From contig JAPJBO010000115.1 of NCBI GenBank assembly GCA_030068145.1, forward strand, positions 306,912 through 370,911: a DNA stretch of 64,000 nt. The letters run 5' to 3'. The notes under the pieces were generated by a model. The model had not been told where the DNA came from and did no database searches. It saw only the letters and a list, made by a program, of their open reading frames with translations. Source of the DNA: Diplonema papillatum (lineage: Eukaryota > Euglenozoa > Diplonemea > Diplonemida > Diplonemidae). The translations under genes and the position numbers were made by a program. The stretch's first letter is position 1; every line of letters begins with the position of its first letter. Positions 3,754 to 53,486 of the stretch are shown here, in pieces.

Positions 3754-3813
3754 CAAAAAAAAAAAAAAAAAAGGAATTATCGGGCAAACACAAAAGAAAC
3801 GAAGGGCAGACCC

Positions 3814-11647: not shown

Positions 11648-11797
11648 CTTTTTCACTCCCAGAAGAGGTAGCGGGCTCTCAGCTCGCTGTTCGCAACAAC
11701 TGGCTTTCAAAAGCGAAGCCTATTTCATTCTCCATTCCTTCCCCCCCCCCCGCAAAAAGGTAAACCTGCGTTTAGAACAAAGAAAGAAGTCGAGTCC

Positions 11798-15773: not shown

Positions 15774-15864
15774 CCGCTATCTTGTAGCTATCCTGGACGA
15801 CGGCTCGAATCCCACAGATGACACTTTCCAGGCGTTCGGAGATGGACTCCCGGAAGAAACTCCT

Positions 15865-16407: not shown

Positions 16408-17976
16408 ATGTTCAGCGCCGAAAGCGAAGGCAGGGATCGCAGAAGCATGCACACCGGCGAGGAAAGGACGCGAAAGCGACCGCGCGAAGACGACGATCCG
16501 AATGAGTGCCAAGCCCCTTCACCACGACACGGTACGAATCGAAGAGGTAGGCTACCTAGCGACTAATGCCGGCCATCGCTAAAGACACTCTGCACTATGC
16601 AAACCTCAACTACACCCAGCTTCGACGAGCGATTTGCACGCCAACAACCGCAACGGACCTCCGCCAGGGGGGCCCCCGGCTTTCGTCGGGCGGGAACAGA
16701 AAAAAGGGGGGAAAAAAAAAATGGGCGGCGAAGGAAAAGATGAGCGGGTCTGCTACAACTGCAAGAAGCCGGGCCACTTCGCCCGCGAGTGCCCGGACAT
16801 CCCGGCCGAGAAGCGGGTGCGGCGCGGGCCGAGCGACCGGAGCAGCATCCTCGGCCCGCCCGTCCTGGGCGACGAGAAGGGCGTGCGCCTGTCGATGGTC
16901 GCCGGCCGGTGCTACCGGCTGCCGACGCGCGAGGTGGCGGCGGTCGAAGAAGTCGAGCTCTCCAGCGAGGCGGCGGACCTCGACGTGAAGTACGATCCCG
17001 GGACTGGACAGTACAGCCTCCGCATGCGTGAGGTCTGGCCCCTCTCCTTTTTTATTTGTGTAAGCACCTGCTTTGTAGGAAATGCTTGAGGAGACAGCCA
17101 GTTGCGATAGATCAAAGGACTGTAGCCCACACGAAACACAAATAAATCTGGGTTTAGTGGCGGGCGTAAGCGTTCAACAAAAAAGACCCACTTTGTACTT
17201 GTATTGTTTTCTCCCCTCTAGCCTCCTTCGAAGTAAGTTTAAGGCAGCCTCTCGAGTATTTCTTTGTATAAGCACCTGCTTTGTAGGAAATGCTTGAGGA
17301 GACAGCCAGTTGCGATAGATCAAAGGAGGTAAATGTGCTGTAGCCCACACGAAACACAGGTAAATCTGAGTTTAGTCGGGCGTAAGCGTTCAACAAAAAA
17401 GATGCTATTGGGTGTCATGGGGGGGTCTTCACGTGGCGACACTGTTGACCGCACCTTAATTGAGTCGCGGTCGCCTATCCCCCAACCGCCAGCATCATGT
17501 ACTTGATGCGACGCGGAACAAGTGCTGACAGCACCGCCCGGCGAATAGAGGGCCACCGATGTGGCAAATCGACCGGTCGGGGGGTGCATAGGGGGCGGTC
17601 TGTAGCCAATGGCCTGATGGCTGAGTGCACCCCTAAGCAGGGCTGCATCCTCCGTGTTGTGTATAAGGCTTCGTGGGGGTCTGGTCAACCACCTCATCAC
17701 AACAGGCGCAAACTTTTCTCGACAGTGATTGGACAGTCGGGATGCCGGGGGCGGGTCTCCATGAGGAAGAGAAAAGTAAAGCCAGACCTGCCCCCTGCGC
17801 CTGCTGTCCGGCTGTGCTTCGGCAGACGACACATACTTTTAGGGGAAAAAGGAAGTGCGCCGAATCATAATTCCTCGTCATCAAACTCCACATCGGACGT
17901 GAAGGGCGCACCGGAGACAAACAGTGCGCGGGGCAAGAAGCGACCGAAGCATGACACGACGCGTGCAAAGAGGTAG
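16408..17976 (+). CDS. CCHC zinc-knuckle nucleic-acid-binding protein, spliced (exons 16408-16546, 16620-17027, 17843-17976)
   Basis: The proposed splicing gives 226 aa in one frame. Intron 1 is 16547-16619 (GTAGGC...CACCCAG, 73 bp). Intron 2 is 17028-17842 (GTGAGG...ACTTTTAG, 815 bp). Residues 47-75 are Gly/Pro/Lys-rich, followed by one zinc knuckle CYNCKKPGHFARECPD (C-x2-C-x4-H-x4-C), typical of single-stranded RNA/DNA binders. An unrecognised conserved-looking stretch then follows up to QYSLRM. The C-terminus has a Ser/Asn run and a basic end with RGKKRPKHD, a plausible nuclear localisation signal. The frame is open upstream of the ATG as far as 16285, so a further 5' exon is possible. Intron 2 holds two tandem family A copies. 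The splice sites are inferred from phase and consensus and have no transcript support. Confidence 0.7.
17048..17402 (-). repeat. Family A repeats, copies 3 and 4, joined head-to-tail in an intron
   Basis: A nearly complete unit (17048-17261) is followed directly by a second, 5'-truncated one (17262-17402). At the junction the start AATACTCGAG of one unit meets the end GCAGGTGCTTATACAAA of the next. Both lie in the second intron of the zinc-knuckle gene, antisense to it. Confidence 0.85.
17655..17815. repeat. Family I repeat (copy also at about 24838-25000)
   Basis: Shared blocks are GTGATTGGACAGTCGGGAT, GCCGGGGGCGGGTC and GACCTGCCCCCTGCGCCTGC, in the same order in both copies. This copy ends just before the 3' exon of the zinc-knuckle gene. 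The repeat is non-coding. Confidence 0.8.
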
Positions 17977-20738: not shown

Positions 20739-20817
20739 TTTGCCCCCTCGCCATCGCCGTTACCTGTGTTCCTGCCTTCCAGACACGCTTCTTGGATACC
20801 ACCTACGACCAGGTCTA

Positions 20818-21040
20818 ATCAAAAAAATACTCGAGGGGCTCCCTTGTGCTTACTTCGAAGGAGGCTATAGGGGGAGAAACAATACAACTACAAAATGGGT
20901 CTTTTTTGTTGAACGCTTACGCCCGCCACTGAACCCAGATTTACCTGTGTTTCGTGTGGTACATTTACCTCCTTTGATCTCTCGCAACTGGCAGTCTCCT
21001 CAAGCATTTCCTACAAAGCAGGTGCTTGTACAAAAAGATT
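20818..21040 (+). repeat. Family A repeat, copy 5 (full length)
   Basis: It starts AAATACTCGAGGGGCTCCC, carries the internal ACAATACAACTACAAAATGGG and ends GCAGGTGCTTGTACAAAAAG. It lies about 400 bp upstream of the AhpD-like gene. The 41 bp around CTACAGCAC seen in other copies are partly deleted. Confidence 0.85.
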
Positions 21041-21447: not shown

Positions 21448-23040
21448 ATGACGACTGACGGGAGCCTGTTGAGGCAAACCCCTCAGCAGGCTGAGGATCG
21501 ACTGTTCTCAGCACCGGACGCGAATTTGACGGATTTGTTCATCGCGTACCCGCAGACGAGTTCGCCCTTGCTGCAGCTATGCCAGGCCGTGATGCAGGCG
21601 GATGACTGTTTGAAGGTCTCGGATCGGTATCTCTTGGCGGCCTACGTGGCAGGGCTGTCTGGTTGTCAGTACTGCGTGATCGTGCAACAGTCAGCGGCAG
21701 TGCTCAGTGGGATCGACGAGGAGCTACTCGCATCTCTGATGCGCGACCTGGACACTGCGCCGCTGCAAGAGCGACTGAAGCCGATCTTCAATTTCGCGCG
21801 CAAGTTGACCCTGTTCCCGGCGACGGTCGGTTCCGAAGACACGCAAGCCATCTTCAACGCCGGCTGGCCCAAGCGTGCCGTCCACGACGCCAGCTACATC
21901 ACGGGCTTGTTCTCGATGCTTTCCCGCATCTGCCCAGGCATGAACATGACCGCGCCGAAGGAGGCGCCCGAAGTCGGCAGATTGCTCTTTGCAGTATGTG
22001 TTGTCTCTCTCTCTCTCTCTCCGTTGCACACCAGAAAATACTTGGCACATACTCGCACACCCACACCCATCGGAAAATGAGCTGAGTCAATAGACCCACG
22101 GTTGAACAGAGCTACCGCAGATGGTTTGCCTGCTTCCGCACCTGCTCTCCGATGCCAGATTGATGAACTATTCGAACTCTCTTCCCTGTACTGACTGAGA
22201 CTCCACGGATGCAACCCCGCACACAGGGAGGGTACACCGCGATTGCGCAGGCACATGGGTTGTCGTTTCGCGAGAGGGAAACGAGGCTGGAGTCGGCAAG
22301 CCTGGCTCGGAACGCCGAGGAAAGTGCGTTGGTTCCCGGGCAACGTGTGGTGCTGAATGACGCGACGAAGCCGGTGCATACTGGGAAGAAAGCGACTGTG
22401 CTGGAGTACGTTCCCCAGACGGCTAATTGGAGGGTCGAACTCGACAATGCGATAGTCCTCCGGGTGTCATCCGACGCATGCATCCCAGACACTTCTGACG
22501 AGCCAGACAGCGACTCCGGCTATTACCAGTCCGAAGCCACGATGGAACACTCTGCTTCGTCCGGCAACAAGGCCGGCATCAACGTCCCGCTTCCCTTCAA
22601 AGGGCCGATGTCCCGCGAAGAGTTGGCCGCGTCGCGCTTCCAGCGCGTGCAGGAGCGGATGGCGCGCGAATTCGCCGCCTCGCCCATCTTCCAGTCTGTC
22701 CGCATCGAGACGGAAGACAAGACCGAAACCGTGTATTTCCGCGTCAACACCCGCTGGGACAAGCGCAGGAAGGCTCGCTTCGCAAAGACGTACACGAGAT
22801 TGTATGTGAGATTCTGTTTCTTCATCAAAAAGAGTCGTCGACACAAACGACTAAGATACGTATATTGCTTGATGCTACCCTGCAGGACCACCCAGCGGTC
22901 CTCCTCAGTTCCGATTAGCGGTGGTTCAACAGGCCCATGCCCACGTCATCCAGGAACTGGAACCGGGGATACCTCTCGTACAACCCCGTATTGCTGTCGG
23001 AATGCGCTGGCCCGATGGGCACTCTCCACCACTAGGGTAA

Positions 23041-23084
<44 letters not shown>

Positions 23085-23288
23085 GTTAGTGGGTGAACAA
23101 TCCAACCCTTAGACAAATCTGCTTGTCTAGGTTAGGAAGAGCGTTCAGCCATAATCCATCCAGTGGTAGCATCACGGCACTGTCCGATCGAACAACCGTA
23201 GATACCAGGGACTAGAAACGGGAGTTCCTCTCGTACTTCCCCGTATTGCTGTCGGAATGCGCTGGCTCTCTCTCCATCAGTAGGGTAA

Positions 23289-23332
<44 letters not shown>

Positions 23333-23832
23333 GTTTCGTGGGGAAACAATCCAACCCTTCGACAATTCTGCTTGTCTAGGTTAGGAAGAGCCGGCATCGG
23401 AGGATCAAAAAGCAACGTCGCTATGAACGCTTGGCTAGACGACCTGCAGCAGGTTCCATTGTCACAACGTTATTGTATTTTGCCGCCTAAGTTTTACGTT
23501 TGCTATTTGAGGACACTAAATAGGTGCCATTGTTTTGTTATCAGTCTGAGCTCCAATCAAAAGAACGCCGACACAGGCGGGAAGAGATTTGACGCCAGAA
23601 CCCCCCCAGAAGAAGTATCTTTGTTTTGGCAATGTGTGACTTAGCATGGGGAACAGAAAACAAGAATTGTTGCATCGTCGTTGTGCTGAAGTCGTGAAAT
23701 CCCCGCAGGTACAAGGACAACCACCGCAAGCTACGCGTGCTCATTTATGACAGAGACGACCAGAAGTCAGTCGGCGACTCATCGCAAACGCACTACCCCG
23801 ATCCGATGGAAGGGATGTACGTCGACTTGTGA
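21448..23832 (+). CDS. AhpD/carboxymuconolactone decarboxylase-like protein with C-terminal SH3-like module (exons 21448-21993, 22227-22801, 23709-23832)
   Basis: The predicted protein has 414 aa. Exon 1 encodes an all-helical CMD/AhpD fold of about 180 aa, with SGCQYCVIVQQ carrying the CxxC redox pair. The histidine that usually follows (CxxCxxxH) is replaced by glutamine. Family members are peroxidase-related or decarboxylases; no substrate can be assigned. Exon 2 contains GQRVVLNDATKPVHTGKKATVLEY...WRVELD, the pattern of an SH3-like/KOW-like beta barrel. The C-terminus (exon 3, KDNHRKLRVLIYDRDD) is not recognised. Introns: 21994-22226 (GTATGT...ACACAG, phase 0) and 22802-23708 (GTATGT...CCGCAG, phase 2). 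Both join open frames exactly, which supports the model. Intron 2 contains antisense LSU rRNA fragments. Alternatively, exon 1 could be a separate gene read on to a stop at 22078. Confidence 0.72.
22880..23425 (-). pseudogene. Two tandem partial LSU (25/28S) rRNA copies, antisense, inside an intron
   Basis: On the minus strand the sequence reads GCCAAGCGTTCATAGCGACGTTGC, AACCTAGACAAGCAGA, GGAACGTGAGCTGGGTTTAG, CCGTCGTGAGACAGGTTGG and AGTACGAGAGGAAC. These are universally conserved eukaryotic LSU segments up to and including the sarcin-ricin loop, then GGATTATGGCTGAACGC. A second, more diverged copy follows from about 23140 down to 22880, beginning CTTCCTAACCTAGACAAG and containing TTGTACGAGAGG. 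Both are partial and do not form an rDNA unit. They lie in intron 2 of the AhpD-like gene, in the opposite direction. Confidence 0.93.
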
Positions 23833-25000: not shown

Positions 25001-28000
25001 ACTTACTACTACAACTGCTGCTTCTCTCTTGCTCACGAAAGCTCGCACAGAGCTATTGCTAGGGCTGTCGGCGGTGTACGTTTTCCAACGGTTGTCGCAA
25101 ACACACGATTGCAAGCGTGTTTTCTTTATCAGTGTCTGTACACGACGGCATGCCAAGTGTCCTGCGTAGCAAGAATCTTTGCTCGTGAAATTACAAGTGG
25201 GGTTCTAACACTTATGTTTACAAGTGTTGTACTTGGAAATCCCTTGCATTTGATGTTAATAAGACCAGATGACCGTTTTCCGTACCGGGGCCGACTCTGC
25301 TGCCGACGATTGCAAAAGCGAAAAAGAAGAAAAAATAGTGGAGTTTGCACTCTAAAAAAGCTATGCATATCCTTGTTTTGACACAATGCGGCACGCGATG
25401 AAACCCGCCCCGAAGATTTAAGCAAACAAAAACTACCGAACTTTCACTCTCTAAAAAAGAACGAGGTGGCGTGCCCGGGGGGACGGGTGGTCGGTTCTTC
25501 CTTTCGGCCTGTAGGCAAAACCCCGTTTCCACATTTCGTTGCCAAGCTGTGTCCACTTCTTCACTGCTACCACCTCCCCCTTTCATTGCTTAGCAAGTTC
25601 TTACGCTTTCACTCACCGACCGTCGCAAACGTAATCGGGAGCAAAGTGAAAAAAAAGAACGAATTCCTCTCCCCGCTCTGTTCCTTTAAGTTGTTTCGTT
25701 TTTTTTTATCGTATAAGATCGAAGATCTTAGAAGATTAATACTATTCCGACGAGAACTAACACTTGTACAAAGGTTATTACCCCGTCGCTCTCGAGAAGA
25801 ACACCGTAATTTTACCCCTCGCTTGCCCACCCACCCTTGCCCATTTTTCTCTTCTAGTCCAGTGTCCTGAGGCGTCACGGAAAGTTCGTGGCATACACGA
25901 AGAAGTTCGTGGCATACACACGAGAATCTCTTCATGACCTTTCTACGTTTGTTACGCACCATCAATCTGACATCACGCAGCAGCAAGGACGAGAGCAGCG
26001 AGTACGGAGCAGCGAGACGGGCGAGGAGGAGAGTATTACCACGTCCGTTCTTAATGGATCCGCTTTGTCTGCACACGTTGTGTCTGAGTGTAGTGGCTGG
26101 AATCATTGGGTCGACGGGAAGCAGTACAATGATATGATCTGAACCTACCTAACAGAGTCGGAGCTCAGCGTTGAAGTTCCCCGGCGTTTACGCCGAAGAA
26201 CAGACAACGACCACACTACCTTCTCAATTACCGTTAGGGACTACCTAAACCGATTTTATGGCGTAGTTATAACCCGACTTTATGGCGTAGTGAGCAGTCA
26301 CGTTGCGCAAACGGCCCGTTGCAACGTGGTTTTGTCTCTGTGAGACAGCACCGTACTATTCGTTGCGGAAGCACTATGCTGTGTCCGACACTTCAGAGAA
26401 ATGTCGACTTAAAAATATAAAGCTACAATTCCAAAAACTTGCCGCTCATCATCAAGCCTTCCCCCTGCCGAATGATGCCGTGCCACTTCGCGCTTTTACT
26501 TTTTTCCCGACACGCGCAGTCAAGCATTGCGTGCTGAATGTCATCAGATTTGCGCACTGACTGCGTTTGTCGATAGCAAACATCATGGCTAGCTGGAAGA
26601 CAATTTGGCCAGCCTTCCTTTAACATCGACACGCATCCCTCTTTTTATTACCGATGGCCATACTTGTACGGAAAGTTGTACCCCGCCTTAAAAAAAAAGC
26701 GGGGGAAAAGCGGGGGATCAGACAACACAATTCTGGACGAATATGGGTGAACAGGTCATCCACACCTGTCGGGGCATGCGTCGACGAGGCTCGGAGGCCC
26801 TCCGGTCGCATTTCAGACATGCTTCCGTCACCGATGCCGCGCTCATGGCCAGGGCAGGTATACACGAGCATACGTGTGTCCAGAAACGGGCGATCTTCTT
26901 TCTGAAAAAGCGCCAGTTGCGAAATCACAAGTAGTTCAGCTTTTGAAGGGAACATGTTTCCAGAGCAATGGTTGCACATGAAGCCTTAAAAACGAAGCCT
27001 GCTAAAGAAAAGGGCTCGCGCGGGAAACTTCACAAAACTCAAACCCTCAAACCTGATACGGGAACATACTGGAGCCCGGCATGCTACGAGGGAACTTGCA
27101 CGGTAGTTAATTCATAAAACCAACTACATAGAAGGCCGCTGCTTAACGTGGTTCATGCATGTGGTCCATGTACTTCAAAGTTCCCAGTGCTTGACGGCTT
27201 TATCACGTGGGTCAGGGGACACCACTTGGTTCATCCCCGTCATTCGGGATCGTTGGAAACACAAAGAACCCCTTTTTCCTGGAGACTCAGCACCAGCCGG
27301 GCTCTTCGAGCATGCCGCAGCCACGAAAGAACGCGCAGGCGCTATCGCGGCGAAAATCACCCGAGACTTCACAACTCTCACTGGAGGGCAACTCTCACTG
27401 GAGGGCAAAAGAGAAGTGATCCCAGGGCCAGATCCGCTGACCGCCCGCTCGTTCTGGAGAGCCGGTGAAAGCGGTATAGACCGCAAGGTGGCTTCGAGTT
27501 CCCGAGGGTGTAGTCAGTGCGGAGGGTGGTCGCCTTTCTTGCTCAAAAAGCGGCCTACAATTCGCGTAGGCGGGCGCTCAGTCTGTAAAAGAAAGGAAGA
27601 GTATCGGCAACAGAAAAAACAGAAACAGCCTGAAAAGAAAAGGCGTCGGAAATGTAAAAAAAGCAACAACAATCAGGAACTGGAAAGCGCAGAACGGCTG
27701 ATGCTGATTCTGGTTGTGCGTCTAGTTTCGGTAGCTTGCTCAATGTCAATAAATTTACCTACTGTTTCCTTCCGCGTGAAGGCACACGGAAGAGGGCCTC
27801 CGCAGGGGTGCTGACCCCAGCGAATGAAAGGGCTCCTTTTCCGCGGCAGGATGTATCTAGCAAGGTGGCCGGTGCTTCTCACTGGCCCCGACGCACGCCA
27901 GCGTCCTCCTCCAAACCCTCTCTGTCTCTATTTATGTCTCTCTTTCTCTTTTCTCCGCATGTGGTACAAAGAAGCGAGGTTTGGCGCGGCAGCTCTTCCC

Positions 28001-29089
28001 CAGAGAAGGGAAATAAAACTGTTCTGGTTGGCGTATGGTTTGGACCACAAGTAAAACAACTGCTCCCGAAGGGTGCATAGGGTGATGCTGCCGCACAGGG
28101 CCGCCAGCACGGGGTTTTATCACGTGGGCGGCTCTGATATTACCCCCTCAGGCGACGCCACTGTCCTATGTTTATCCATGCTTCAACTTCCTCTGGGCTT
28201 TGGGGACCGCAGAAAGCCTTTTTGATTTTCGTTACCGATGCACTGTTGGTACGTATTAGTAGTCGGCGGCGTTACTCTGCAACTTACAACAAGGAATCTC
28301 AAGCGAAACGTTAACTCTGAAAAAAGATGAGAACCAGTCGTGCCTGCGAACGAAATAAATCTCTTTTTTTTTTTGTCGTATAAGACGCTAGTCTTAGAAG
28401 ATTAATATTAACCGACTAATGATATACTGTGAAACAGGGCCTCTCGCTCCATCACACAACCGCTCACGCTCTTGCTCACTAATTTTACTGTCCAAAAAAC
28501 CTTTTCGTTCTTTTTTCGTAATCCTTGGATCTTAGAAGATGAATACTTTCCAAATAACTAGCAACAGCTTTGAAGCCTTGAAGGACTTTCAAAGCGAAGT
28601 TTCACTCTAATAACTGCAAACAGGGCCCCTTTCCCTCGAAACACCCCTTGCTCCTTTCTCTCGCTACCGGAAAGCACAAAGATCATCGACAATTGGATTT
28701 TCCTGCTCAACCTTTCTGCTGTGACCCAACTACTGTTTTTGTGGCACTGAGCAGACGACTTCTTCCCTTGGGACTCAACTATTCTATCCCTCTGGGCGAC
28801 AATTTGTTTCAACTTCAATTTCTTCGGCACGTTTGAGCAGACGTTTTCTTCCCTTCACTCATTCCTTCACACGCTTTGGCGGCTTTGGCGGCGGCGGCTT
28901 GTCCCAGGGTTATGAATACCTCGGGCGAGTTCGTTGGCTGTGTGAGCAAAAAAAAAGCTGAAATAAAAGATTCTTGTTCTTCGCGTCCGTGAAGCCCCTG
29001 ACGGTCGCGTTCTCCGCACGAAAACTTTCACTCTGACCACCGCCTTTTTCCTACATGAGTGCCAGCTTGGAAGGAAATGCTCGACAATA
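25001..29089. other. Four-kilobase gene-free stretch built of dispersed repeats
   Basis: Recognisable pieces are family C (TCGTATAAGA...CTTAGAAGATTAATA at about 25705-25742 and 28373-28410, diverged at about 28513-28545), family D tails (TTTCACTCTAAAAA or TGCACTCTAAAAA at about 25342, 25440, 28310 and 28596), and family E (27130-27230 and 28098-28210). A 219-codon frame at 27155-27814 begins within family E and ends in Lys/Arg runs; it matches no known domain and is left uncalled. Confidence 0.6.
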
Positions 29090-29343
29090 GCTGCCAGACA
29101 AACTGAAGGGATCCCAAGTGCTGTAACTACCGAACACGTGTTGAACGGACGTGAGGTCATGCGGGTCTACCCCAACGACAAATCACACAAACACAACAGG
29201 TCAAAGTCCTGAGTGAGAAACCAACACACGGTGGTGTAAGCGAAGAACAAATCAGATCGTGTTTGTATTGCATTTCCCCCTACCTCTATGTTCCCTCCCT
29301 TCCATTCGGAGTCTAAGCAGCTACGTCGAGTATTTTTTCAGAG
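29090..29343 (-). repeat. Family G repeat, copy 2
   Basis: It is a near-identical partner of 10085-10345, sharing CGAACACGTGTTGAACGGACG, GGTCATGCGGGTCTACCCC and CAGCTACGTCGAGTATT. It differs mainly by small indels, so the two copies are of similar, fairly young age. Confidence 0.8.
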
Positions 29344-30531
29344 TGTTTTTTTTTTTTTGCATCTGCAGAAAATTACGAAAAACCTCCAGACAGAATCCTG
29401 TTTTCTCATCAAGGACTTCGCGAACGAAGTGAGAGAAGTTCTAGACGAACTTATATATCCGCAAGGTGAATACCGACCGTTGAACCCAGGAAACAGTCTA
29501 AAAACTTGTCAGAACGGGCTGCCTGGCTGATTTTCTGTCTGCAAAAAAGGGGAGTGAACTGAAAGGAGAACCAGGATTATCCAAGAAAGAGGAGGGATAG
29601 CAGTACTAATTGTTGTTGGAAATAAAGAAAACAAAAAGAAAAGGTCCACAAGAGAAGAAAAAATAAGCAAGCAAAATAAGCCGCCAAACATCAGGACGAC
29701 GTCATTCGTCGACCACACACAATCCCGACCCTAATCCACGAGTACCAAGGCTACATCCCTCGAAGGAATGTACTTGGTGTCGGTCGCAAACAGTCCCATG
29801 GTCAGCCTGCCTTTGCCCACAATGAAAGTGCACTCCAAATAAACAACCTGCACACACCCAGATTGCCCTTACTTGCTCTAAAAAAAGAGAACCCATTGAA
29901 CAAAGGTCACCCGGAGGCCTAAAATACCGGAATCTAAAGCGAACGTTAACTCTAATTTACACTAAAATTTTACTTACGACACTCAGAGCACAAAGAATAT
30001 CCCCGGAGTTTCAAGCAAACTTTCACTCTAAAACGTAAGCGTGAGCAAAGATGCGAATCAATAAAGGTGGGGATGCGAAAGCTATGGGTAAGGGTCAGAA
30101 AAAGCTATTTGTCGCGTTGAGAATATTGGACTGTACCTGCGGTTACAGTCAGCGCCCGAGAGGAGCCCCAAGTAGTATCGCAGACGCTTGCATTTTCATT
30201 TCATTTCAATGTTCATGAAGCCTAACGGAACACGGTCGTTAAAAAGAATAGACCCCGTGTCTCTAGACTCACCTCTCCCCCGCCGAAAGGGGTGAAGGCT
30301 TCAGTCTTCAGTCAGCCGTATATTGTTCTTCATCGCAAAGCAATTCAAAGGAATGGACGTTCTGACACCGTCCGTCCGCATCATGCACTGCCGTCGCGCG
30401 CCCCTTGCAAACGCTGCTGGCTATGAACGTGATCCCCGTCTGGTCAGTCGCAACCAATGCGGCTGCTGGGCCTCTGACTCTTCACGATGCTGCAAATTGG
30501 AAGGGAGTGCGTGGCGCTTCAAAAAAGGGGG
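29344..30531. other. Intergenic DNA left of the retroelement
   Basis: Family D blocks occur at about 29902-29955 (GGTCACCCGGAGGCC...GTTAACTCTAA) and 29995-30035. No gene was recognised. The sequence directly before the inverted terminus is a short A run and GGGGG. Confidence 0.55.
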
Positions 30532-30637
30532 TTTGTTTGTGCGATTTAACCTACGTGTGTTCTGGTTAAACCGCTGCCAACGTTCTTTTTAGCTGTAACA
30601 AATACTGTCTCCAGGGAAGCAGAAATTGGTTGTCGCA
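30532..30637 (+). repeat. Left inverted terminal repeat of the YR retroelement
   Basis: It runs from TTTGTTTGTGCGATTTAACC to GAAATTGGTTGTCGCA and is the exact reverse complement of 34829-34934 over all 106 positions checked. Homology stops abruptly on both sides, which defines the element ends. Confidence 0.95.
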
Positions 30638-31283
30638 TAAAAGAACAGGCACCGGAGCACGAGCGGCCCCTATTCGGACCCCCCCTCCCCCCTCCTTCTC
30701 AAGCTTGTCAACCCCACCGATTTTCTATCTTCTTTCCCCCTCCCCCTTTTCGACGTTGCTGTTGACTAACGGTTAGGTCGGACCCTTCCCCGGTGAACAT
30801 CCCATGAAAGTAACAGTGTTGACTTAGACCGATACGGGCTACATGGCAACCCCTGCTCAACATGTATGCACGTGGGGGGCCCAGGGCCACATTCATTGCG
30901 AATGTGTTCGTGGTGTCGGTCGCAGAAGTCTTTTGTTTTGGCTAGCCAAAGAGAGAAAAAGAGCGAAAGAGTACGTACAGTAGTGAGTAGAGAAGAGAAC
31001 GAGTGTAAAAGAAAGGAGGTAGCACGGACTACCAGGCCAGCGGAGACCACCGCAAAAAGAAATTTTCTTTCCCCTACTTCATCCCACAAAACCATCACCA
31101 ACAACAACGACTCCCCCCTCCTTCTCACCACCGTAAGCGACAGATAACCCGGGATGGGACCCGGCGGAAACTAAGCAAAAAAGCGGCTGATCGCCTGATA
31201 TGATGAATTGCATGCCACACGGAGGAAAAACCAACCGACCCACTTGACGAGGACTCGACGAAGCGGGAAGTCGATGTTGGGCG

Positions 31284-32588
31284 CTAACATTGCGGACGAT
31301 TCAGTCTTGTGTACTGATCCGCGATGTTCTGGAGCGACGGAACGTAGCTGATGTTCAGCCGGCTCCTGGATGAGGCCAAGCTCTTGTTGATCAGAGTTAG
31401 CAGCTGCATCGCATCCTGACGAAGCGTGTAGCCGCGGCGTACGCAGCCTATCACCGCCTTGTTGTCACAAAGCAGGTTGATGTCCATGCTCGACTGGGCG
31501 TGGACCGCGTGCTCTACGGCCCGAACGACGGCGTATAGCTCCTTCATGAAGATGTCCGCGTGGAGCAACTCCGAAGGAAAGCCCCCATAGACATGGAACC
31601 CGTCTGCCACGAATGCCCATGCCGACATGCTGGCGTCGGAGACGACATCAATCGAACGAGTGTAAACCGGTCTGCACCATTGCCGCCAGGCGTTACCCCG
31701 CATGTCGGAGCACTGGGCAGCGAGGCAGCTCTTGACCGCAGCTGGGCAAGGCGCGACGGAGTCCCAGAACGCGCTGTCGGTAGACGCGCGGCCGGAGGCC
31801 AGGGCGGACATCCAATGCAAGAGGGGAAGCACCTCGTGGAGAGGGTACCCCATCACGTGGCGACGCCAGAGCAGAGACCCGGTCAGTTTCCACCACACGC
31901 GGACGGGAGCCGCACTGAACTCCAGGATCTGGCCCATTACCGGTCCGGCCTTCATCGTCCAGGCTGGGTCCACGCGCCATCTCTTCGCTGCGAGGTCGAG
32001 ATCCAGTCCCAGCAGCACCGCGCGGGTAGAAGGCTTGGACCAGCTCCCGATGGTCAAGCCGTACTTCGAAGTCAAAGCCTTGAAGCGAGCCGAGGCTTCC
32101 ATAACTTCGGCCTCAGTGTCCGCCACGAAGATCACGTTGTCGATCCACGCGAGGACCTCAACGTCAACACCCTGGGCGGCGGCAACCGCAAGCTCCAGCG
32201 AGACCGCCTGGGCCGCCTGAGGCGCGGCACGGTAGCCCATCGGCAGGCGCGTCATCCACATCAGCCTGCCCTCAACACGGAAATAGAAATACTTCCTGAC
32301 CTCTGGAGGCAGCGCAAACTGGAAGAAAAAGGAGCGGAAGTCGAACTCAGCCACCCACTTGCGGGACAGCACCGTAGTCACGATGGTGGCGTAGCTGGGC
32401 AGGTCGCAGGGGGGCAGAGGCACGTGTGCCGTAGCCCGGTTGATGGATTCGCAGCTGAGGATGAAGCGCAGCTGACCGGGGGCCCGTTTGTCCACCGTAA
32501 ACGCGCCGTGGAACCAGCGGGAAGACGCCGCTTCAGGGACCGGTGCAGCGACGTCCAACTCAAGCAAGCGATCGACGTGCGGCATCAT
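31284..32588 (-). CDS. Reverse transcriptase-RNase H of the YR retroelement
   Basis: The frame is open for 434 aa from ATG 32588. RT motifs in order: FTVDKRAPGQLRFI, motif A VAEFDFRSFFFQF (catalytic Asp), motif B RLPMGYRAAPQ, motif C LAWIDNVIFVAD and motif E LLGLDLD. The catalytic YxDD box reads W-I-D-N; the second Asp is Asn (codon at 32136-32138, one base from GAC). RNase H follows with its D-E-D-D set: VVSDAS, MKELYAV, LLCDNKAV and NIADQYTR. The ATG overlaps the stop of the preceding frame as ATGA (32585-32588), which suggests coupled reinitiation. The product would make element cDNA, if the Asn is tolerated. Confidence 0.93.
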   Translation of the reverse strand: MMPHVDRLLELDVAAPVPEAASSRWFHGAFTVDKRAPGQLRFILSCESINRATAHVPLPPCDLPSYATIVTTVLSRKWVAEFDFRSFFFQFALPPEVRKYFYFRVEGRLMWMTRLPMGYRAAPQAAQAVSLELAVAAAQGVDVEVLAWIDNVIFVADTEAEVMEASARFKALTSKYGLTIGSWSKPSTRAVLLGLDLDLAAKRWRVDPAWTMKAGPVMGQILEFSAAPVRVWWKLTGSLLWRRHVMGYPLHEVLPLLHWMSALASGRASTDSAFWDSVAPCPAAVKSCLAAQCSDMRGNAWRQWCRPVYTRSIDVVSDASMSAWAFVADGFHVYGGFPSELLHADIFMKELYAVVRAVEHAVHAQSSMDINLLCDNKAVIGCVRRGYTLRQDAMQLLTLINKSLASSRSRLNISYVPSLQNIADQYTRLNRPQC

Positions 32589-32826
32589 TCGGAAGTTGCG
32601 GGGCCCCGGGCCGCCATGTTGCTGCGGAGGCTGGGGAAATCCTGCAGAAGCGCTTCGTGATTGAACGGCGGGGCGGTCGCAGCGATCTCTCCGTCATACG
32701 AGGCCTTCGTGACCCGTTTCCCGCTACTCGCGTCTAGCCAGCCGTTGGCGTAGTCATACCCCTGCAGGATCTTGTCGAGATGACGCGGCCACAGCGATTG
32801 TTTGGCGGGGCCGCTGTTCACCCAGT
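32585..32826 (-). other. Short open stretch linking YR and RT frames
   Basis: In a third frame the sequence KDWVNSGPAKQSLWPRH to RSNMAARGPATSE is open from just after the YR stop to a TGA that overlaps the RT ATG. Its composition (Leu, Asp, Tyr, Phe spread, low bias) resembles protein. It may be the N-terminus of the RT polyprotein reached by frameshifting. The remainder of the 460-codon frame that contains it is a shadow of YR. Confidence 0.5.
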
Positions 32827-33738
32827 CCTTTGCAAGGCAGCTGTGCCCGGGGCTGAGAGCAGGACCGGCTGCCAAAGGTGATGCGGAGTGTATAAGCGCG
32901 TCGTCCTGGGATTCAGGTGTCGCCCCACGTTCATCGCCGTCTGCTCGCCCTCCAGGAGGGCCACCCAGCTCAGCGCGGCATGTCTGATGCGGTGCGACGA
33001 CACCCCCAGCTCCTCTTGTAGGAAACTGTTGTAGGCCTGTCGTGACAGGTTGGGGAACAGGGGCGCCTTGGTGCCCAGGGCCGGCCGATGGATCGTGATC
33101 CATTCCCAGAAAGGCGTCAGAAAAGGACCGCTTCGCGGTAGCAAGAGACCCTGGCCTCTTGAGGTAGGGTCGGTCTTCCCGCCGACGAACAGGATCATGA
33201 CCTGTCCTGTGTCCACCGACCACATGTGGTCCAGCCGAATCCGCTGCAGATCCACGAACCTGCAAGCCGTCGACCACTGGAACCGGAGGGCCATGGCGTG
33301 CAAGGACGAGCCTCGTGAGACTACCAACTGTATCGCCGCCTTGGTCGGAGTCCGTCCGGCGTCGCGGGTGCGTCGGCCCTCGAACTGTTCCATGGTCAGC
33401 TTGACCGAACGGCGATAAGCACCCATCCAGTCCACCCGGGACATCCTGAAGTACGTTGCGTACTGGAGGGCAGATTCGGCAGTGAGCTCGCCGGCCATCA
33501 TCTTCCGGTTCACCCACATGAGGAAAGCCTCCTCGTCGGACAATGCGGGGTAAAACCGGCGGGCCTCCACTGCGTACCTCTGAGCACGGCTCACCACCGA
33601 CAGCATAGCAGGGGTGCTCTTGTAGCACTTCTGCAACGCGAGGAGTAGTGACTCCTGGTCCGTCCGGAACCGATCTTGATCGGGGCACGCGGAGTCCTTT
33701 TTCCGAGGTCGTGACCTCGCTGCCAACTCCTTCCACAA
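32818..33738 (-). CDS. Tyrosine recombinase of the YR retroelement
   Basis: 306 aa from the candidate ATG at 33738. Catalytic residues of the tyrosine recombinase/integrase fold are all visible: the first Arg in STACRFVDLQRIRLDHMW, Lys in FVGGKTDP, H-x-x-R in SSHRIRHAALSWV, His in VGRHLNP and the nucleophile Tyr in TRLYTPH. The N-terminal 120 residues would form the SAM-like core-binding domain. The family cuts and joins DNA through a covalent phosphotyrosine, here to insert circular cDNA of the element. The frame is uninterrupted, so the enzyme may be active. Confidence 0.93.
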   Translation of the reverse strand: MWKELAARSRPRKKDSACPDQDRFRTDQESLLLALQKCYKSTPAMLSVVSRAQRYAVEARRFYPALSDEEAFLMWVNRKMMAGELTAESALQYATYFRMSRVDWMGAYRRSVKLTMEQFEGRRTRDAGRTPTKAAIQLVVSRGSSLHAMALRFQWSTACRFVDLQRIRLDHMWSVDTGQVMILFVGGKTDPTSRGQGLLLPRSGPFLTPFWEWITIHRPALGTKAPLFPNLSRQAYNSFLQEELGVSSHRIRHAALSWVALLEGEQTAMNVGRHLNPRTTRLYTPHHLWQPVLLSAPGTAALQRTG

Positions 33739-33783
33739 ACCCTCCGAAGGCAGGCCGGTGGGAACAGAAGCGCTCGCCGCAAT

Positions 33784-34334
33784 TCACTTCCGCGGCCTCT
33801 TCGAGGGGTGCTCCCTCCTTTCGTCCCTCTGGTCCGCCTTTTTTGAGAGGTCGGCCATGGACTTTTGCGCCTGGACCAGAGCCGACTTCGTGAAGTCGGT
33901 GTAGTCCAAAGACCCGAACCGGGTCTCCCACGCAATCTGGAATTCGATCCCGTTCGCATGCAAGCACTTCAGCCGCAGGGCCTCCAGGCGGACCATGATG
34001 TGATGGAGCACCTGGAGGATGGGCGGGGTCTGGTACGCCAACGGCATCAGGGCGATAAGAGTGACGAAGTGGGTCCGGCGCTCGTGGTCGACCACGCTCC
34101 CCGCGTCGTGGGGGTTCTCGGGAACCAAATGGTAGGCGTATCTGCCTTTTATTTCGGACAGGATGACTTGGCGCCCGCCAACCCCTCCACCCAAGTCATG
34201 ACTCGGCGTGGGTCCACCGCCTCGGTCATGACCGGTGCGGCCTGCGCAGCCATCGGGAGGTTTTGGAAGGCAGATTGGGCGAACAAAGCGAGGAGAGCGG
34301 TCTTGACCGGGCCCTCCTCAACGGCAGCGAGCAC
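33784..34334 (-). CDS. Gag-like protein of the YR retroelement, with one frameshift
   Basis: Two overlapping minus-strand frames read as one protein. The first, 34334-34149, begins MLAAVEEGPVKTALLALF and ends TWVEGLAGAKSSCPK. The second runs to 33784 with VILSEIKGRYAYHLVPENP, HHIMVRLEALRLKCLHANG and a charged end with KKADQRDERREHPSKRPRK. The switch is a -1 shift near 34150-34170, either programmed or a mutation. The protein is small and basic at the C-terminus, as in first ORFs of DIRS elements. It matches no named domain. A decayed relative is on the minus strand at 39820-40115. Confidence 0.65.
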
Positions 34335-34828
34335 TCTCTGGTACGAGACGCAATTCGTTTACAATTCCATTCCAGGGCCCCAGACTGTCCTTGAGCTCAA
34401 CGGATTCAAAAGCGTTCAAAAACGTCCTCGGAATGTATTTTTCGACACAGCCACGAAACCTGAACGAGGTTTTCAGGTTCTGGCAGGTCTAGCTGGCTGC
34501 CTAAAGGGTAAACCACGGCTCAGTCACCCAAGGTGGGCGTGAAAAAAACTCTTTTTTGGGCCAGAATCCCTATAGAAACCGCCCCCCCCAACCCCCCTCC
34601 AAAAACCCAGGGGTTAAGTTAGGACCTTTTCTCAGCTCTATTTCCGGTTTTGTTGGTGTTGCCGTCGGATCCAGCAGTGCGTACTGAAGCAGTGCAGTGA
34701 AGGAAGTGGGACGAGTCGGCTTCGGGCTGGGCTTGTCCCACTTATTCTTTTTTCATTAACCGGGTTTTGGAACCGGTCCTGACTTAAACCCGCTGCTAGA
34801 CTATGTTTTTTCTCTTTTTCTTATTTTT

Positions 34829-34934
34829 TGCGACAACCAATTTCTGCTTCCCTGGAGACAGTATTTGTTACAGCTAAAAAGAACGTTGGCAGCGGTTTAA
34901 CCAGAACACACGTAGGTTAAATCGCACAAACAAA
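34829..34934 (-). repeat. Right inverted terminal repeat of the YR retroelement
   Basis: It is the exact inverse of 30532-30637. A zinc-ribbon ORF begins 17 bp beyond its outer end. A diverged solo relative is at 3696-3753. Confidence 0.95.
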
Positions 34935-34951
34935 AAATAATTGCTCGTGCT

Positions 34952-35506
34952 ATGGCTTGTGAGTTCAAGGCCGTGGATTGGTCCCCGATCCAGGTTGTCC
35001 GCGCCCCCGACGAGTGGGAGGCCGCGGAGGAAGACGTCGACTGCTGTGTCGATTGTGGAAAGATCCACACCGCGGGGGCGTTCTGTGCCCGATGCGGGAA
35101 ACGGGGTCTGGCCACCTGCCTCAAAGCGGCGCTCCCAAGGGAAGTCGCGCCCCTGTTCGTAGACCACTTAGCGGCGGACGGGTGGGTTTGCCCCGCCTGC
35201 ATAGTGGCGGTGCACCAGGCTGGCACCACTCTTCAAGAAGAGTTCCGTGTCCGGATCGCTCGTGCTCAAGAGCACGACGCTCCGCCGAGCTTGGCTCAAG
35301 AGCCATTTTCCTTTGGTTATCGTTCAGGGCCCGGGCTCCGAGTTACAGGTACCCCCGGGAGGGGGGTCAGCCGGCTGATGGATGGATGGACGGTTCTTAA
35401 CAAGATGCCTGGGGAGTCTTCCTTCCGGATGAGAACTGGAAGCAGAAGACGTGTTCAGAAACCCGAGGGGTGGGGAAGGGTGTCGCAATCAACCAAAGAA
35501 AAGTAA
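34952..35506 (+). CDS. Zinc-ribbon/zinc-finger protein of unknown function
   Basis: The 184-codon frame starts at ATG 34952. Residues 30-52 contain CCVDCGKIHTAGAFCARCG, two CxxC pairs that could form a zinc ribbon, and a third pair follows in DGWVCPACIV. The first 130 residues are GC-rich with the codon use of the other genes. The last 50 lose that character (Arg/Gly-rich), so the true end or a splice site may be near 35345. The ORF starts directly outside the right terminus of the retroelement and reads away from it, so its original promoter may have been displaced. It could be a host gene, a captured gene or part of an older element. Confidence 0.55.
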   Translation: MACEFKAVDWSPIQVVRAPDEWEAAEEDVDCCVDCGKIHTAGAFCARCGKRGLATCLKAALPREVAPLFVDHLAADGWVCPACIVAVHQAGTTLQEEFRVRIARAQEHDAPPSLAQEPFSFGYRSGPGLRVTGTPGRGVSRLMDGWTVLNKMPGESSFRMRTGSRRRVQKPEGWGRVSQSTKEK

Positions 35507-37902
35507 AGGGGAAACAGTCTAAACGCCGCGGGCCGCTTCACGACCTACCGCGAAGCACTTGCGCGGGCTGCCTGCATGGAAAGGGCGAACGGGCGCTGAG
35601 GAACCATTTCCTCGGCGACGGCCTGGGATGGACCCAAAATCCCCTCGATATTCATAATATTATACGTAAGATGACCACCTACCGCCTGGGGCCGGCTGAC
35701 CCCACAATGTGGTGTCCACGTGTACGCTCAGACGCCACGTAGACCTGTACTGCGCAACGAAGTGGTCACACCTTCCCAGACGTCTATGGTGCCACAATTG
35801 AAAGTGTGCGCAACAGATCGAAGGCCGGCGGCCACTGACTGGCAATGTTGTAAGGGAGGATAGCGCTAGAAAAAAGATGGGTCGAAAACGAAACGCAGTG
35901 TTTTCCTGTGTGCCGAAAAGGAGGCCCATCGTACGTGAGTCCGTCACTCAGCTGCCAACTTAACGCGGAAACGCTCAGAGAATATAGTTGGTGTTTGTTG
36001 CGTCCAACTCGTCCAACAGGAAAACACCGCCCAAAAAAGGGGGGGAAACGATCCACGTGGGTGTACATTATGTTGGTCTTCTTGGCAAGAGCAAGTTGGC
36101 CGAAAACCGGTCGATGGCAGCGTACTACCCTCCTTCTCGTTTACCATCAAGAAAACAGGTTGAAGGAAGTGCGCACATATAAATTGTGTTCCAGCAACGC
36201 CTATTGAGGCCAGAAACATTCCCTGCTGGACCACCCATTTTCGAGCCACGTCGGAACGCATTTACAAAACGCACGGCAGCGCATGTCACAACCTGGATAT
36301 TGATATAGCATGCCGATGACTCCCCACTAGCGCAACAATATTCCAATCTCAAAGCAGGGAAATGTGCTGTAGCCCTGTATTTTGTCGTGCCATTCGGCGA
36401 GCGGCCGGATGCCACGAGACACTGAACGCGTGAACCCTGAGCGGGCACCGTTAGCGTCCAAGCAACAAACATCAGTTCTGTTTCGTCTTTTTTTGTTTTT
36501 CTTTTTACTTTGCTTCATGTCCTGCTTATTTCTGCTTTCGTATGGGCATCTGCCTGTGAAATCCCTCGTGCCGGGTGGGTTTAGAAGAGAAGAACGTGCT
36601 GTTCTGCATGCCTCTCGACAACTTGCGCGGGGGAGGGTAGCTGCTTCTAAAGGTACTGCCGATTGGGGACTTTTGCATGTTTCGCCTTTCTTCTTGGATT
36701 TACTCCAGCAAGGAAGTGCGACGCGCGCGCACGAAAGGGAGACCAGATACGTCACGAACCAGCAAAGGTCATCGTGAGGGACGTTTGTCCCGCAAGCAGC
36801 GTTTGCCTTTCTTTTGCTAATACGATTCTGCGCGCAACGCATCGCCCCCACTTTTCTTCTTCTCCTTCTTTTTGCTCCCACCCCTCCCACCAGGGCTGTG
36901 CTTCGTACGTCGACTGTCGGGCTCTTTGGGCATGCCGCTGGCGGGGACAACGCGCGAGATGCTTAGCTGGACGACACCAGAACCGCACCGTCGTGTGGGA
37001 TCACCTTTCGAGAGATTTTGTAACTAAGCACCCCCCCATTCACCGCCCTAACGGTTTAAAAATGGGTTGTGGGCGGCTTGCTAGCTAAATGACACCTCGA
37101 ATACACCATGTTGTCGACAACAAGCGTTGCAACATATTTGCCGCTCTGCCGCTTGCCGTTCCTGAGAGGTCTCCTCTCGGAAGCACAGCCCTGTCCCCCT
37201 CCCCTCCCCATGCCTTTCTATATTTTTTTGTTCTAGCCGTGAAGCTTGTGCAGGAATGGAAGGACTCCTGTAGAACCGAAATGGTTATTGACCCTGTGGA
37301 CGAAGAGTGTACCCATGGGCCCTCGCCGACAAGCACGTGCCTGTCTTGACCTGAGGCGTCGACGTGAACACTTTCCTTGTGTACCGCACGAGGGCGGATA
37401 CGTACGCTCTGGTACGCAGCAAGGTTCTCGGGGTCAAACTTGCATGCTCAGGAACGTCGGCAGCGGGTTTGACCGAAGGCGGAAAACGTTCTGCAAACCC
37501 GCTTAAAAAGCGCGGAAGAAACTGGGGGTTCGTGCGCATGGTGCAGGGCGTTTAGCTCACGCGTTCACCCGCTTCGTAACAATACGGGCCAAGACGCTCG
37601 ACAGGAGAAGACGCGTCTGGAGGAATCGTGCGCGCTGATTGCGGTGTGTGAATACTCAACACTGGGCTTGCAGGTCCGAACAAACCCTTGGAGTTCAAGG
37701 TAGCTGCTTCAAAGAAGCATCTGTTCGGCGAAAAATAAAAGCCCTGCCGGCGCCCCCCTCCCTTACCCCAGCCGTTTCGTTCCTGTTCTTGCGTTCTTTT
37801 CATTCTCCGCCGCCACCGGGCACGCCGTTACTCACTCGGCTGTCGATATTCCCTGCTCCGCAGTTAGCTGGGCGGCAGTCGAGTGTGAGACCTCTCGTCG
37901 GC
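35507..37902. other. Intergenic DNA, no recognisable gene
   Basis: Short frames on both strands show no domains. A frame at 35470-35742 continues with some protein-like character (CAGCLHGKGERALRNHF) and might be a 3' exon of the zinc-ribbon ORF, but no convincing splice pair was found. Confidence 0.5.
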
Positions 37903-39297
37903 ATGGCCGCCGAAGAGGCTACGCAACTTAGTTCCTGCACGAGTCCCGCACCCACTCTCACACCCATACCCAGCAAGAAAAGGTGCAAGCTTGAACTGTA
38001 CGTACCGTCAGTGGAACGGACCGCGTGGATAGTCTGGTCGTAGGCTACACGCTGACAGCGTTCTCTTTCGTGTTCACAGTTCATGTTGTTATGAGCCGTT
38101 TCACCCTGAAAGCGACCTGAGTACTCGATTACGCGGCGGTTACGCTCTATTTTCGCTCGATTACGCTCTACGAAACTCTGGTTGACGCAGATTTCTGCCA
38201 CATATTATTTGCAAACTACGAAACTAGATTGAATCCTTAGATGCAGAACTCGTTCACATTTTCACTTTTCTCGCCCCCTTTCCCGATTACCGTTCTGTCC
38301 CTCCTCCTATTCAAGTGCCGTCGATCAGGGGTTGCCATCCATGCCGTGGCACGCTCATGTTCCCGGAAGAGTTGCAACGGAATGTCTTAAATGAGTTAGC
38401 ACTCCCATTTAGTACCTCCTTAGTTATAAGCCGTTCCGTACAGGCGCAGCAGCGTCGTCAACGTGTTGATGTTGTAACCGTGTTTCCGTATTCAGAAAAG
38501 TACTGCGCCAGAAGGCTTGTGGACTTACTTTATTTTTTGTATGAGCACCTGCTTTGTAGGAAATACTTGAGGAGGCTGCCAGCTGCAAAAGATCAAAGGA
38601 GGTAAATGTGTAGTAGCCCACACGAAACACAGGCGAATCTGGGTTCATTGGCGGGCGTTAGCGTTCCCACTTTGCAGTTGTATTGTTTCTCCCCTTCTAG
38701 CCTCCTCCGAAGTAAGCACAAGGCAGCCCCTCGAGTATTTTTTGTATGAGCACCTGCTTTGCAGCACTTACAATCTCCCAAAGGAGCATGTTGAGTCTGG
38801 GATTGGTAACTACGGACTCGTTCCCCAAGACCGATCGAGATCGAGATCATGAACCGCAACACACTTCCTATCCTTTTTTTAAGAGCTAACCTTTGGCGCT
38901 TCCCCTCGGCAACCCCTTCAGAATTACAATTCAAGGACCCCACGACGGCACTGGCCCAATCCCTTCACTTTTTCTTCTTCAGCCCGCAAGAAAAATACTA
39001 CCGTTTCTTACCATTCTGCTTGTGCGACAAGCTATCGTCGGCGCAACTCGGGAACGTGACCGCCGCCGCGAGGGGCTAAACGACTCACCACCCAGCAGCA
39101 TAGCCGCAGTCGCTGCCTGTCTCGCTGTTGTCGCCTCGGCTGCGGCTCCTGTACATGATTGCCGTCGGCAGATCTACACGGACTACGAAGACCTGCAGCG
39201 GCTCGTCGTCTCAAAGGTCATCAATGATGACCCGGACCTGGCTGCAATCCTGCCAGAGTACCGAGAGACGAGGTCCCACCAAGTCGAATTGCAGTAG
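37903..39297 (+). CDS. Candidate small two-exon gene, unknown function (exons 37903-38001, 39172-39297)
   Basis: ATG 37903 has a strong context (GGCATGGCC). Exon 1 reads MAAEEATQLSSCTSP to KKRCKLELY and ends at a GTACCG donor. The acceptor GTCGGCAG at 39171 opens an in-phase exon IYTDYEDLQRLVVSKVINDDPDL ending HQVELQ and TAG, for 74 aa in total. The second exon has the charged, helical look of real protein. No domain was recognised. Extra exons may lie between. The proposed 1.17-kb intron contains a family A repeat. This is inference from phase and composition only. Confidence 0.4.
38530..38790 (-). repeat. Family A repeat, copy 6, with the start of a second unit
   Basis: A full unit is present on the minus strand (38530-38745), and its 5' side is joined to another unit's 3' end (TTTGTATGAGCACCTGCTTTGCAG, 38740-38765). 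This is the same head-to-tail junction as at 17262. It lies in the proposed intron of the candidate gene 37903-39297. Confidence 0.85.
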
Positions 39298-43264: not shown

Positions 43265-44656
43265 CATACATGTAACCCCCGACAAATTTGTCGGGGGAAA
43301 TCGGGGGGAATCGGGGGCTAAAAAACCCCCGATTTTTAAAATCGGGGGAAATCGGGGGGGTTTCGCTGTAGTGCACTGGCTGGGATTTTTTTTTGTCGGC
43401 CCATGGGCATGACTACCGATTGAAAGGCTGAGAAAGAAAATAGAATTTCTGAGAAATGGCGAACGAACGGAAAAAAGAAATGTTAGCCGAGGCACGTTTT
43501 GTGCGACCCGGTCAGCTTTTGCGGCTGCTTTGCGAGTATTTCGCTCAACGCCCGCGCTTCCTTGACAACTGCCGGGGTTGGCATTCGGACTGCTTTTAGT
43601 TGCGCGGGCTTTCGGTTCGACGCTGCGCTGCTTCCGGCTCTTCATCGCTTGTCGTGTCTTCGATAGACACCAGTCTTCTTTTTAGCTCTCTTATTTTCTG
43701 CGGGGCCGTCCTGCTGCCTTCCGAGGTGGTGAAGCAGCATGCGGAGTTTTGTTCAGCCAACGGCTTTCTGCTGAAGAACAAGGAAATCCGGGACGGGCTA
43801 AACAGGCGGCGGCTACGATGAAGATGTTGGTATCTTCTACAGCTAGTGCACAGCTGTTCGATCGAAATTCGACTTTGGCGCACTGGCCAGCCTGCATACC
43901 CAGAACCCTGAAGAGGGCCTATACAGAGCACCCGAATTACGGCATCTTCATCAGTCTTCGATTCCTTCACCCAGCAATGGTCCTCCTTACCAGACGGTGC
44001 CTCTATCGAGGCAATGTGTGCTCTGTTTGCCGCGAGCTTCGCGGGCAGTTTGTGCAGTGGGCCGGCAGTGCTACGCTGACAAGCACCCGCGGTACAGCCC
44101 ACGACTATTGTGGGCATCCTACACGGGGGAGCATCCGGCACTGCAGTACTTCGCTAAAATGTGTCTCAAGCTTTCACCGACCGACACACACACGTCTTCA
44201 GTACACTGAACATACTCGGAGAGAATAAAAGACGCCGCCGGTTGAAGCCGGAGATCATCGCAATGCGCGGCACTGATGCGATGTCGCAGGTGGGATTCGC
44301 GAAGATGGTTGAGTGCCATGAGACATCTTCAGAGGAGTCGGACTTGGTGAGTAGGTGTCATGGCCCGTGAGAAATAGCCGGAGAAAAAATATTCTGAGAG
44401 TATCCCAGTTTCGAAACACGTCGAAATAGTTATTTAATGCGATGTATGCACTTGTTTTCCCATCTCTTTGCCTTGCAGACAGGTAGAGTCCAACCATAAA
44501 TACCCCCGATTTCCCCCGATTTCCCCCCGATTTTCCACCCTTTTCCCCCGATTTCCTTACCGAGTTTCCCCCGATTTCCCCCCGATTTCTGCTGAGCCAT
44601 CAGACCCCCGATTTTCCCCGATTCCCCCGACAATTTTGTCGGGGGTTACATGTATG
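43265..44656. mobile_element. 1.4-kb DNA transposon with long TIRs and 6-bp target-site duplication GCATGA
   Basis: The left end CATACATGTAACCCCCGACA and the right end TGTCGGGGGTTACATGTATG are inverted repeats of about 33 bp with one or two mismatches. GCATGA flanks both sides (43259-43264 and 44657-44662). Inside each end lie arrays of the short motif CCCCCGATTT, or its inverse (43285-43365 and 44500-44640), probably transposase-binding subterminal repeats. The central 1.1 kb has gene-like pieces on the plus strand: EVVKQHAEFCSANGFLLKNK (about 43715-43780), a Cys-rich CVLC...CAVGRQCYADKHP (about 44005-44085) and LKPEIIAMRGTDAMSQVGF ending at a GTGAGT donor (about 44250-44346). No transposase was recognised, so the element is non-autonomous or encodes an unfamiliar protein. 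Confidence 0.88.
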
Positions 44657-44847
44657 GCATGAGAGGCAGTTTACTCTCACGCGGCGATCTTGAACAAAAC
44701 AGGTGGAGTCGGCAGGGGGAAAAAAAGCAAGAAAAAGAAAAAACGTCGGAAGGACACCAATCTGTACGCCGCCTCATACGGGACCTCCGGAAACACGAAC
44801 AGGGGAGTGAAGTAGTCAAAAGCGGCAGCGACCGCCCAAAGCGAGCT

Positions 44848-53448: not shown

Positions 53449-53486
53449 CCACCCGCCCACGGAACGGCTCCTTAGAGCCTTCCTCC

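Follow-up and report, generated by a model that had tools for sequence, protein, structure and literature searches.

Several groups of retroelements pair a tyrosine recombinase (YR) with a reverse transcriptase (RT) and RNase H, and in two of these, the PAT-like and Ngaro-like elements, the RT gene precedes the YR gene. The groups are sorted by their end repeats because different repeats imply different ways of reverse transcription (PMC6681497). VIPER and TATE, the VIPER-like elements, end in split direct repeats of the form A1...B1-A2-B2 (PMC6681497, PMC12278014), the published examples being at least 57 bp long (PMC6681497). They carry an open reading frame (ORF) in the gag position, followed by the YR and by RT/RNase H. 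The YR and RT frames overlap according to PMC12278014, and PMC3266345 presents Viper as usually free of overlaps. Split direct repeats are also reported for PAT-like and Ngaro-like elements (PMC4157794, PMC3266345), and DIRS1-like elements have inverted ends together with internal complementary regions (PMC3266345).

The hosts of VIPER and TATE are kinetoplastids, and Diplonema belongs to the sister group of these hosts (PMC12278014). The genome paper of Diplonema papillatum, in its available text, names TATE-like ORFs under 'DNA transposons' (PMC10161547). Among the papers listed by literature searches, no title or beginning of an abstract describes YR retroelements of diplonemids or a YR-before-RT order paired with plain inverted ends. 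Here, we describe an element of D. papillatum in which this order and such ends occur together.

Results

The window that was analysed comprises 64,000 nucleotides of a contig of the marine flagellate D. papillatum and contains a 4,403-bp element at 30532-34934, the coding strand of which is the minus strand. Read from its right end leftward, the element consists of an inverted repeat, a gag-position ORF, a YR gene, an RT/RNase H gene, a region of about 650 bp with no recognised gene between the RT stop and the repeat (30638-31283), and the second inverted repeat. The repeat at the 5' end of the coding strand (34829-34934, minus strand) and its inverted copy at the 3' end (30532-30637, plus strand) are identical over the outer 106 nt, and the similarity extends inward to 114 nt at 98% (112 of 114 positions, 34821-34934 and 30532-30645). 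Their distances, about 460 bp to the gag position and about 650 bp to the RT stop, are those expected of element ends. Thus, the initial annotation of this DNA, which had reported identical inverted 106-bp ends around gag-like, YR and RT-RNase H frames in that order, is confirmed. It should be noted that the inverted ends are known from one copy of the element. No target duplication was visible in the flanks, and the 10 flanking bases differ between the two sides.

The gag-position ORF (33787-34358, minus strand) is called gag by position only and had no domain match in Pfam. Its open stretches, 34152-34358 and 33787-34317, lie in different frames, so that it is apparently interrupted in this copy. 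The second of these segments lies in one frame with the YR, from which it is split by a single stop codon (TGA). The YR gene (32818-33738, minus strand) encodes 306 aa from the first TTG, within a frame that is open from 33783; in P0005 and P0006, which are database models, the protein starts at a methionine encoded near 33606. The residues R-K-H-R-H-Y (in the arrangement R-K-HxxR-H-Y), the roles of which are presumably those known from tyrosine recombinases, are kept and are complete in all five sequences. The predicted structure matches Xer, Cre and lambda integrase, and type IB topoisomerases, which have the same fold, rank lower. The identification of the protein as a tyrosine recombinase is based on the residues, weak Pfam matches and the modelled fold. 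The single sequence had no match among PDB sequences, and the 21 matches of the YR profile to PDB sequences (Rap1 GTPases, antibodies, butyrophilin) were discarded, none being a recombinase. Among 4,190 candidates, the YR protein search retrieved three D. papillatum proteins (74-100% identical) and P0008 (36%).

The RT/RNase H gene (31284-32588, minus strand) encodes 434 aa with a match to Pfam RVT_1 (E 3.4e-8). At E<=1e-3, a search that scored the 7,995 candidates with most words in common retrieved four proteins, all from D. papillatum and 84-97% identical. When the search was limited to a region and relaxed to E<=10, eight proteins were found among 4,582 candidates, namely four from D. papillatum as well as P0009, a EukProt transcript, and P0010-P0012, from ENA contigs, which are 46-49% identical over the RT core. 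A profile built with eight relatives matched the PDB entry 8r0s, named 'Enzymatic polyprotein' (7e-9), which we take to be a pararetroviral RT, and MMLV RT (2e-4), and more weakly two protease-RT-RNase H proteins (0.06-0.08) and 4ol8 (0.5), presumably Ty3; one of the 11 profile matches, to a ribosomal protein at 0.22, was spurious. Motif C of the RT reads WIDN, not YxDD, the second aspartate being replaced by asparagine in all eight aligned sequences. The RNase H had no Pfam match and was recognised by four conserved acidic residues, which are present in all five D. papillatum proteins and also align in P0010-P0012, and the C-terminus of P0009 has neither these residues nor RNase H motifs. The succession of an RT core and an RNase H is that of LTR-type and pararetroviral reverse transcriptases. 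In a tree of nine RTs, composed of the family and its relatives with no named reference family included, three groups were resolved: the D. papillatum proteins, P0010-P0012, and P0009 on a long branch. The structure model of the RT was unusable (pLDDT 36). Pattern matches in IMG/VR viral contigs (31, 66 and 259) and in GTDB genome contigs (144) yielded no confirmed relative.

Judged from the sequences of these relatives, the YR-before-RT order looks like a trait of the lineage. The D. papillatum gene model P0004 unites YR and RT in one polypeptide that is colinear with the element, as YR and then RT, and in P0003 the RT frame runs through the YR region into the RT; read one base later, this extension encodes the YR (score 233.6, versus at most 42.2 in 15 shuffles). 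In P0009, some 470 residues precede the RT, and one base later they read as a relative of the Diplonema YR, with scores of 175.8, 213.9 and 147.3 against three YR queries (maxima of 15 shuffles each: 44.7, 41.2 and 42.8); a shift by two bases gave 25.6-27.7, no better than shuffles. Thus, P0009 comes from a second eukaryote in which the YR lies ahead of the RT and overlaps it in another frame, and the order, being shared with this distant transcript, is old. For P0008 (YR) as for P0012 (RT), the listed source is one ENA contig of length 16,755; the two therefore probably stem from the same contig, so that YR and RT are probably linked there as well.

In the window copy itself, the RT reading frame extends far upstream of the RT without a stop (32588-34195, minus strand, 536 codons), crossing the entire YR and a portion of gag. 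Over the 321 YR codons, a stop-free frame was matched by a fraction of only 0.0012 of 5,000 synonymous shuffles, which had a mean of 5.7 stops; the other shifted frame has 10 stops, versus 11.9 in shuffles. The element shows the VIPER-like order of gag-like ORF (by position only), YR and RT/RNase H on one strand, and VIPER-like overlapping frames of YR and RT/RNase H, likewise found in P0003 and the P0009 transcript. The DIRS-like order, with RT/RNase H before the catalytic part of the YR, was not found. The likeness of this order to that of the kinetoplastid elements VIPER and TATE, which the initial annotation had pointed out, holds, and it gains from the position of Diplonema in the sister group of their hosts. 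The suggestion of a new lineage or clade of YR retroelements, made in the same place, is borne out in part, in that the order recurs in P0004, P0003 and P0009 and RT relatives exist outside the D. papillatum genome. Copies with RT before YR, named there as evidence that would speak against it, were not seen among the D. papillatum gene models covering YR as well as RT, of which there are two.

Split direct repeats, whether of the VIPER-like or of the PAT-like and Ngaro-like kind, were not found at the ends of this one copy (at least 25 nt within 28000-38000; at least 16 nt within 30000-35500). The sole direct repeat of at least 25 nt in the wider interval is a 44-nt pair at 70% identity, at 29745-29788, outside the element, and 30881-30924, inside it; in the narrower interval, the direct repeats that reached 16 nt were a 17-mer in the 3' region, rich in pyrimidines, and an 18-mer at 89%. 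The inverted terminal repeats typical of DIRS-like elements are present, and a DIRS-like internal complementary region was not detected, as exact words, and 20-mers and 30-mers with mismatches, gave nothing beyond chance. The longest internal matches to the terminal repeat are 8 nt direct and 10 nt inverted, and 27 of 200 shuffles reach at least 10 nt inverted. In the four minus-strand frames scanned, there was no match to a methyltransferase.

Within the terminal repeat, a pyrimidine run followed by AG (34874-34883, minus strand; repeat positions 52-61) may be a spliced-leader acceptor. It is the one such site in the repeat; because these motifs are common, at about 1.6 per kb in the window, it is weak evidence of an acceptor. 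The proposal of a structured RNA in the repeat was dropped, the folding z of 0.02 being nothing special and no Rfam family being reached at gathering thresholds. Exact matches to the repeat core were absent from IMG/VR and from GTDB genomes, collections in which records very near the D. papillatum genome may be missing. The inner half of the repeat has a relative (85-86%) at 3696-3768 (plus strand). It precedes the ATG of a cytochrome b5 / FMN dehydrogenase gene by about 45 nt and is oriented to this gene as the 5' repeat is to gag, with AA at the place of the possible acceptor AG. This stretch could be a solo remnant or, alternatively, host sequence taken up by the element; since the inner half occurs alone upstream of a host gene, part of the repeat may be host sequence or belong to another repeat.

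The D. papillatum proteins P0001-P0007 belong to the same family, being 74-100% identical to the window proteins. Their database names are 'Pol polyprotein', 'Aspartic protease' and 'hypothetical protein', and neither the database nor the available text of the genome paper (PMC10161547) calls them YR retroelements. The YR P0005 is 99.6% identical to the window YR over 262 aa, and its cluster at the 90% identity level comprises four sequences on 10 contigs. Such near-identical YR genes on other contigs indicate that the family probably moved recently. From its sequence, the copy in the window looks defective, with interrupted gag and RT frames: compared with P0003, some 20 residues are missing and the frame changes where the RT-frame extension joins the RT core, and the RT frame ends early at this short deletion. 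The comparison was made against predicted gene models, and the break in the gag frame may be an assembly error. Thus, the recent mobility that had originally been proposed from the identical ends is likely for the family, whereas the copy at hand looks defective.

The surroundings of the element were also characterized. Three Rfam matches to 28S rRNA gene fragments (13105-13235, 23114-23254 and 23293-23444) fit the published description of the D. papillatum genome, which has about 3,600 28S pieces and an assembly of which repeats make up 52% (PMC10161547). Dispersed repeats of about 220 bp, which may be a short interspersed element, occur in both orientations as a family of at least seven pieces that are about 79-97% alike (2066-2286, 17043-17402, 20810-21036, 38528-38764 and 56025-56249, and the shorter 9000-9298 and 53482-53555). 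Short tandem or near-tandem duplications with alignments of 151-287 bp lie at 15478-15775, 15864-16287, 5205-5511 and 22950-23391, the last overlapping 28S fragments. The DNA of the neighbouring genes 6846-8090 and 11778-13013 is 86% identical over 1.2 kb, and the first has a short-chain dehydrogenase domain. Seven of the nine plus-strand frames scanned have Pfam matches at E<=0.01 (one below its cut-off), and host genes on the plus strand include 44596-49248, 52297-53448 and 56386-59493. The element, on the minus strand, is opposed to the likely co-transcription of these genes.

Discussion

The element shares with the VIPER-like elements its gene order, the overlap of YR and RT frames (PMC12278014) and a host from the sister group of the kinetoplastids, and no methyltransferase was matched in the four minus-strand frames scanned; a relation to VIPER and TATE, resting on gene order and host lineage, fits these observations. 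However, the termini of VIPER and TATE are split direct repeats (PMC6681497, PMC12278014), whereas the ends here are one perfect inverted repeat, and the element is therefore termed VIPER-like in gene order and not a member of the group. With DIRS1 it has in common the inverted terminal repeats, YR, RT/RNase H, overlapping frames and the absence of a target duplication, but it differs in having YR before RT and no detected internal complementary region. The PAT-like and Ngaro-like elements are likewise YR and RT/RNase H retroelements, but they have split direct repeats (PMC4157794, PMC3266345), which were not found here. With neither split direct repeats nor an internal complementary region detected in this copy, the combination is neither of the VIPER/TATE type nor of the DIRS1 type. 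We consider it quite probable that the element belongs to a diplonemid lineage of YR retrotransposons that works in the general mode of DIRS-order elements, in which an RNA copy would be reverse transcribed and the product integrated by the YR without target duplication.

It might be argued that the element is an ordinary Euglenozoa VIPER/TATE-like element with split direct repeats as its true termini, the inverted ends being a local accident such as a rearranged or secondarily copied end. The gag-YR-RT/RNase H order and the host lineage agree with this explanation (PMC6681497, PMC12278014), as do the mention of TATE-like ORFs in the genome paper (PMC10161547) and the fact that the inverted ends come from one copy. 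Nevertheless, it is clearly unlikely, since the direct repeats that were found (44 nt at 70%, the 17-mer, and the 18-mer at 89%) do not lie at the ends, published repeats measure at least 57 bp (PMC6681497), and an accidental perfect 106-bp inversion exactly around the coding part would be unlikely in itself. Inverted ends are a hallmark of DIRS-like elements (PMC3266345) and YR elements show homoplasy in structural features (PMC4157794), so a DIRS-like element that kept its ends, lost its internal complementary region and had its YR/RT order swapped also has to be considered. The internal matches to the ends, which stay within chance (8 nt direct, 10 nt inverted), the lack of a methyltransferase match in the four frames scanned and the YR-first order, which is common to the distant P0009 transcript and thus old, render this highly improbable.

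A composite, in which a DNA transposon with terminal inverted repeats of 106 bp, or a pair of inverted solo repeats, encloses a retroelement, would agree with the isolated occurrence of the inner half of the repeat at 3696-3768. It is the least probable of these explanations, given that no target duplication lies beside the repeats, where the 10 flanking bases differ, that no transposase family was matched in the four frames scanned between the repeats, and that the distances of about 460 bp to the gag position and about 650 bp to the RT stop correspond to the spacing of element ends.

Within the preferred reading as a YR-first diplonemid lineage, the perfect inverted repeat in place of split direct repeats of the trypanosome type implies that the DNA ends may be completed differently. 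Essentially all mRNAs of D. papillatum receive a spliced leader (PMC10161547). The RNA of the element might thereby lose its outermost 5' bases and start inside the 5' repeat, for example, at an acceptor near repeat position 61. In the resulting cDNA, the repeat at the 5' end would be complete and the inverted one at the 3' end truncated. With plain inverted repeats as its ends, the cDNA could complete itself by folding back: its 3' end would pair with its own 5' repeat as template and be extended to the tip, which would restore the lost end. No internal copy of the ends would be needed, and both repeats would come out identical; identical ends, as observed, are what fold-back copying predicts. 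The two tips, brought together, could form a circle with a palindromic 212-bp junction, the two inverted arms of which would be the YR site for integration. This completion step, which would differ from the models published for split repeats and for DIRS1 as far as these are laid out in the cited sources, is put forward tentatively, as a possible but doubtful part of the scheme. D. papillatum has already been transformed by gene replacement (PMC10161547), and the idea could thus be tested there.

Taken as a whole, the explanation by a YR-first diplonemid lineage with inverted ends is, in our view, moderately probable. It is a speculative and somewhat unlikely extension that a fifth YR-retroelement architecture exists in diplonemids and other, probably marine, protists, defined by a leading YR, an RT frame through the whole YR, plain perfect inverted repeats without an internal complementary region, self-templated fold-back that restores cDNA ends lost through spliced-leader trans-splicing, and YR-mediated integration of a circle with a palindromic junction. 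Intermediates between split direct and inverted repeats have not been observed, according to the available text of PMC4157794. The element, with the gene order of the VIPER group, which has split repeats, and with plain inverted ends, is a candidate for such an intermediate form.
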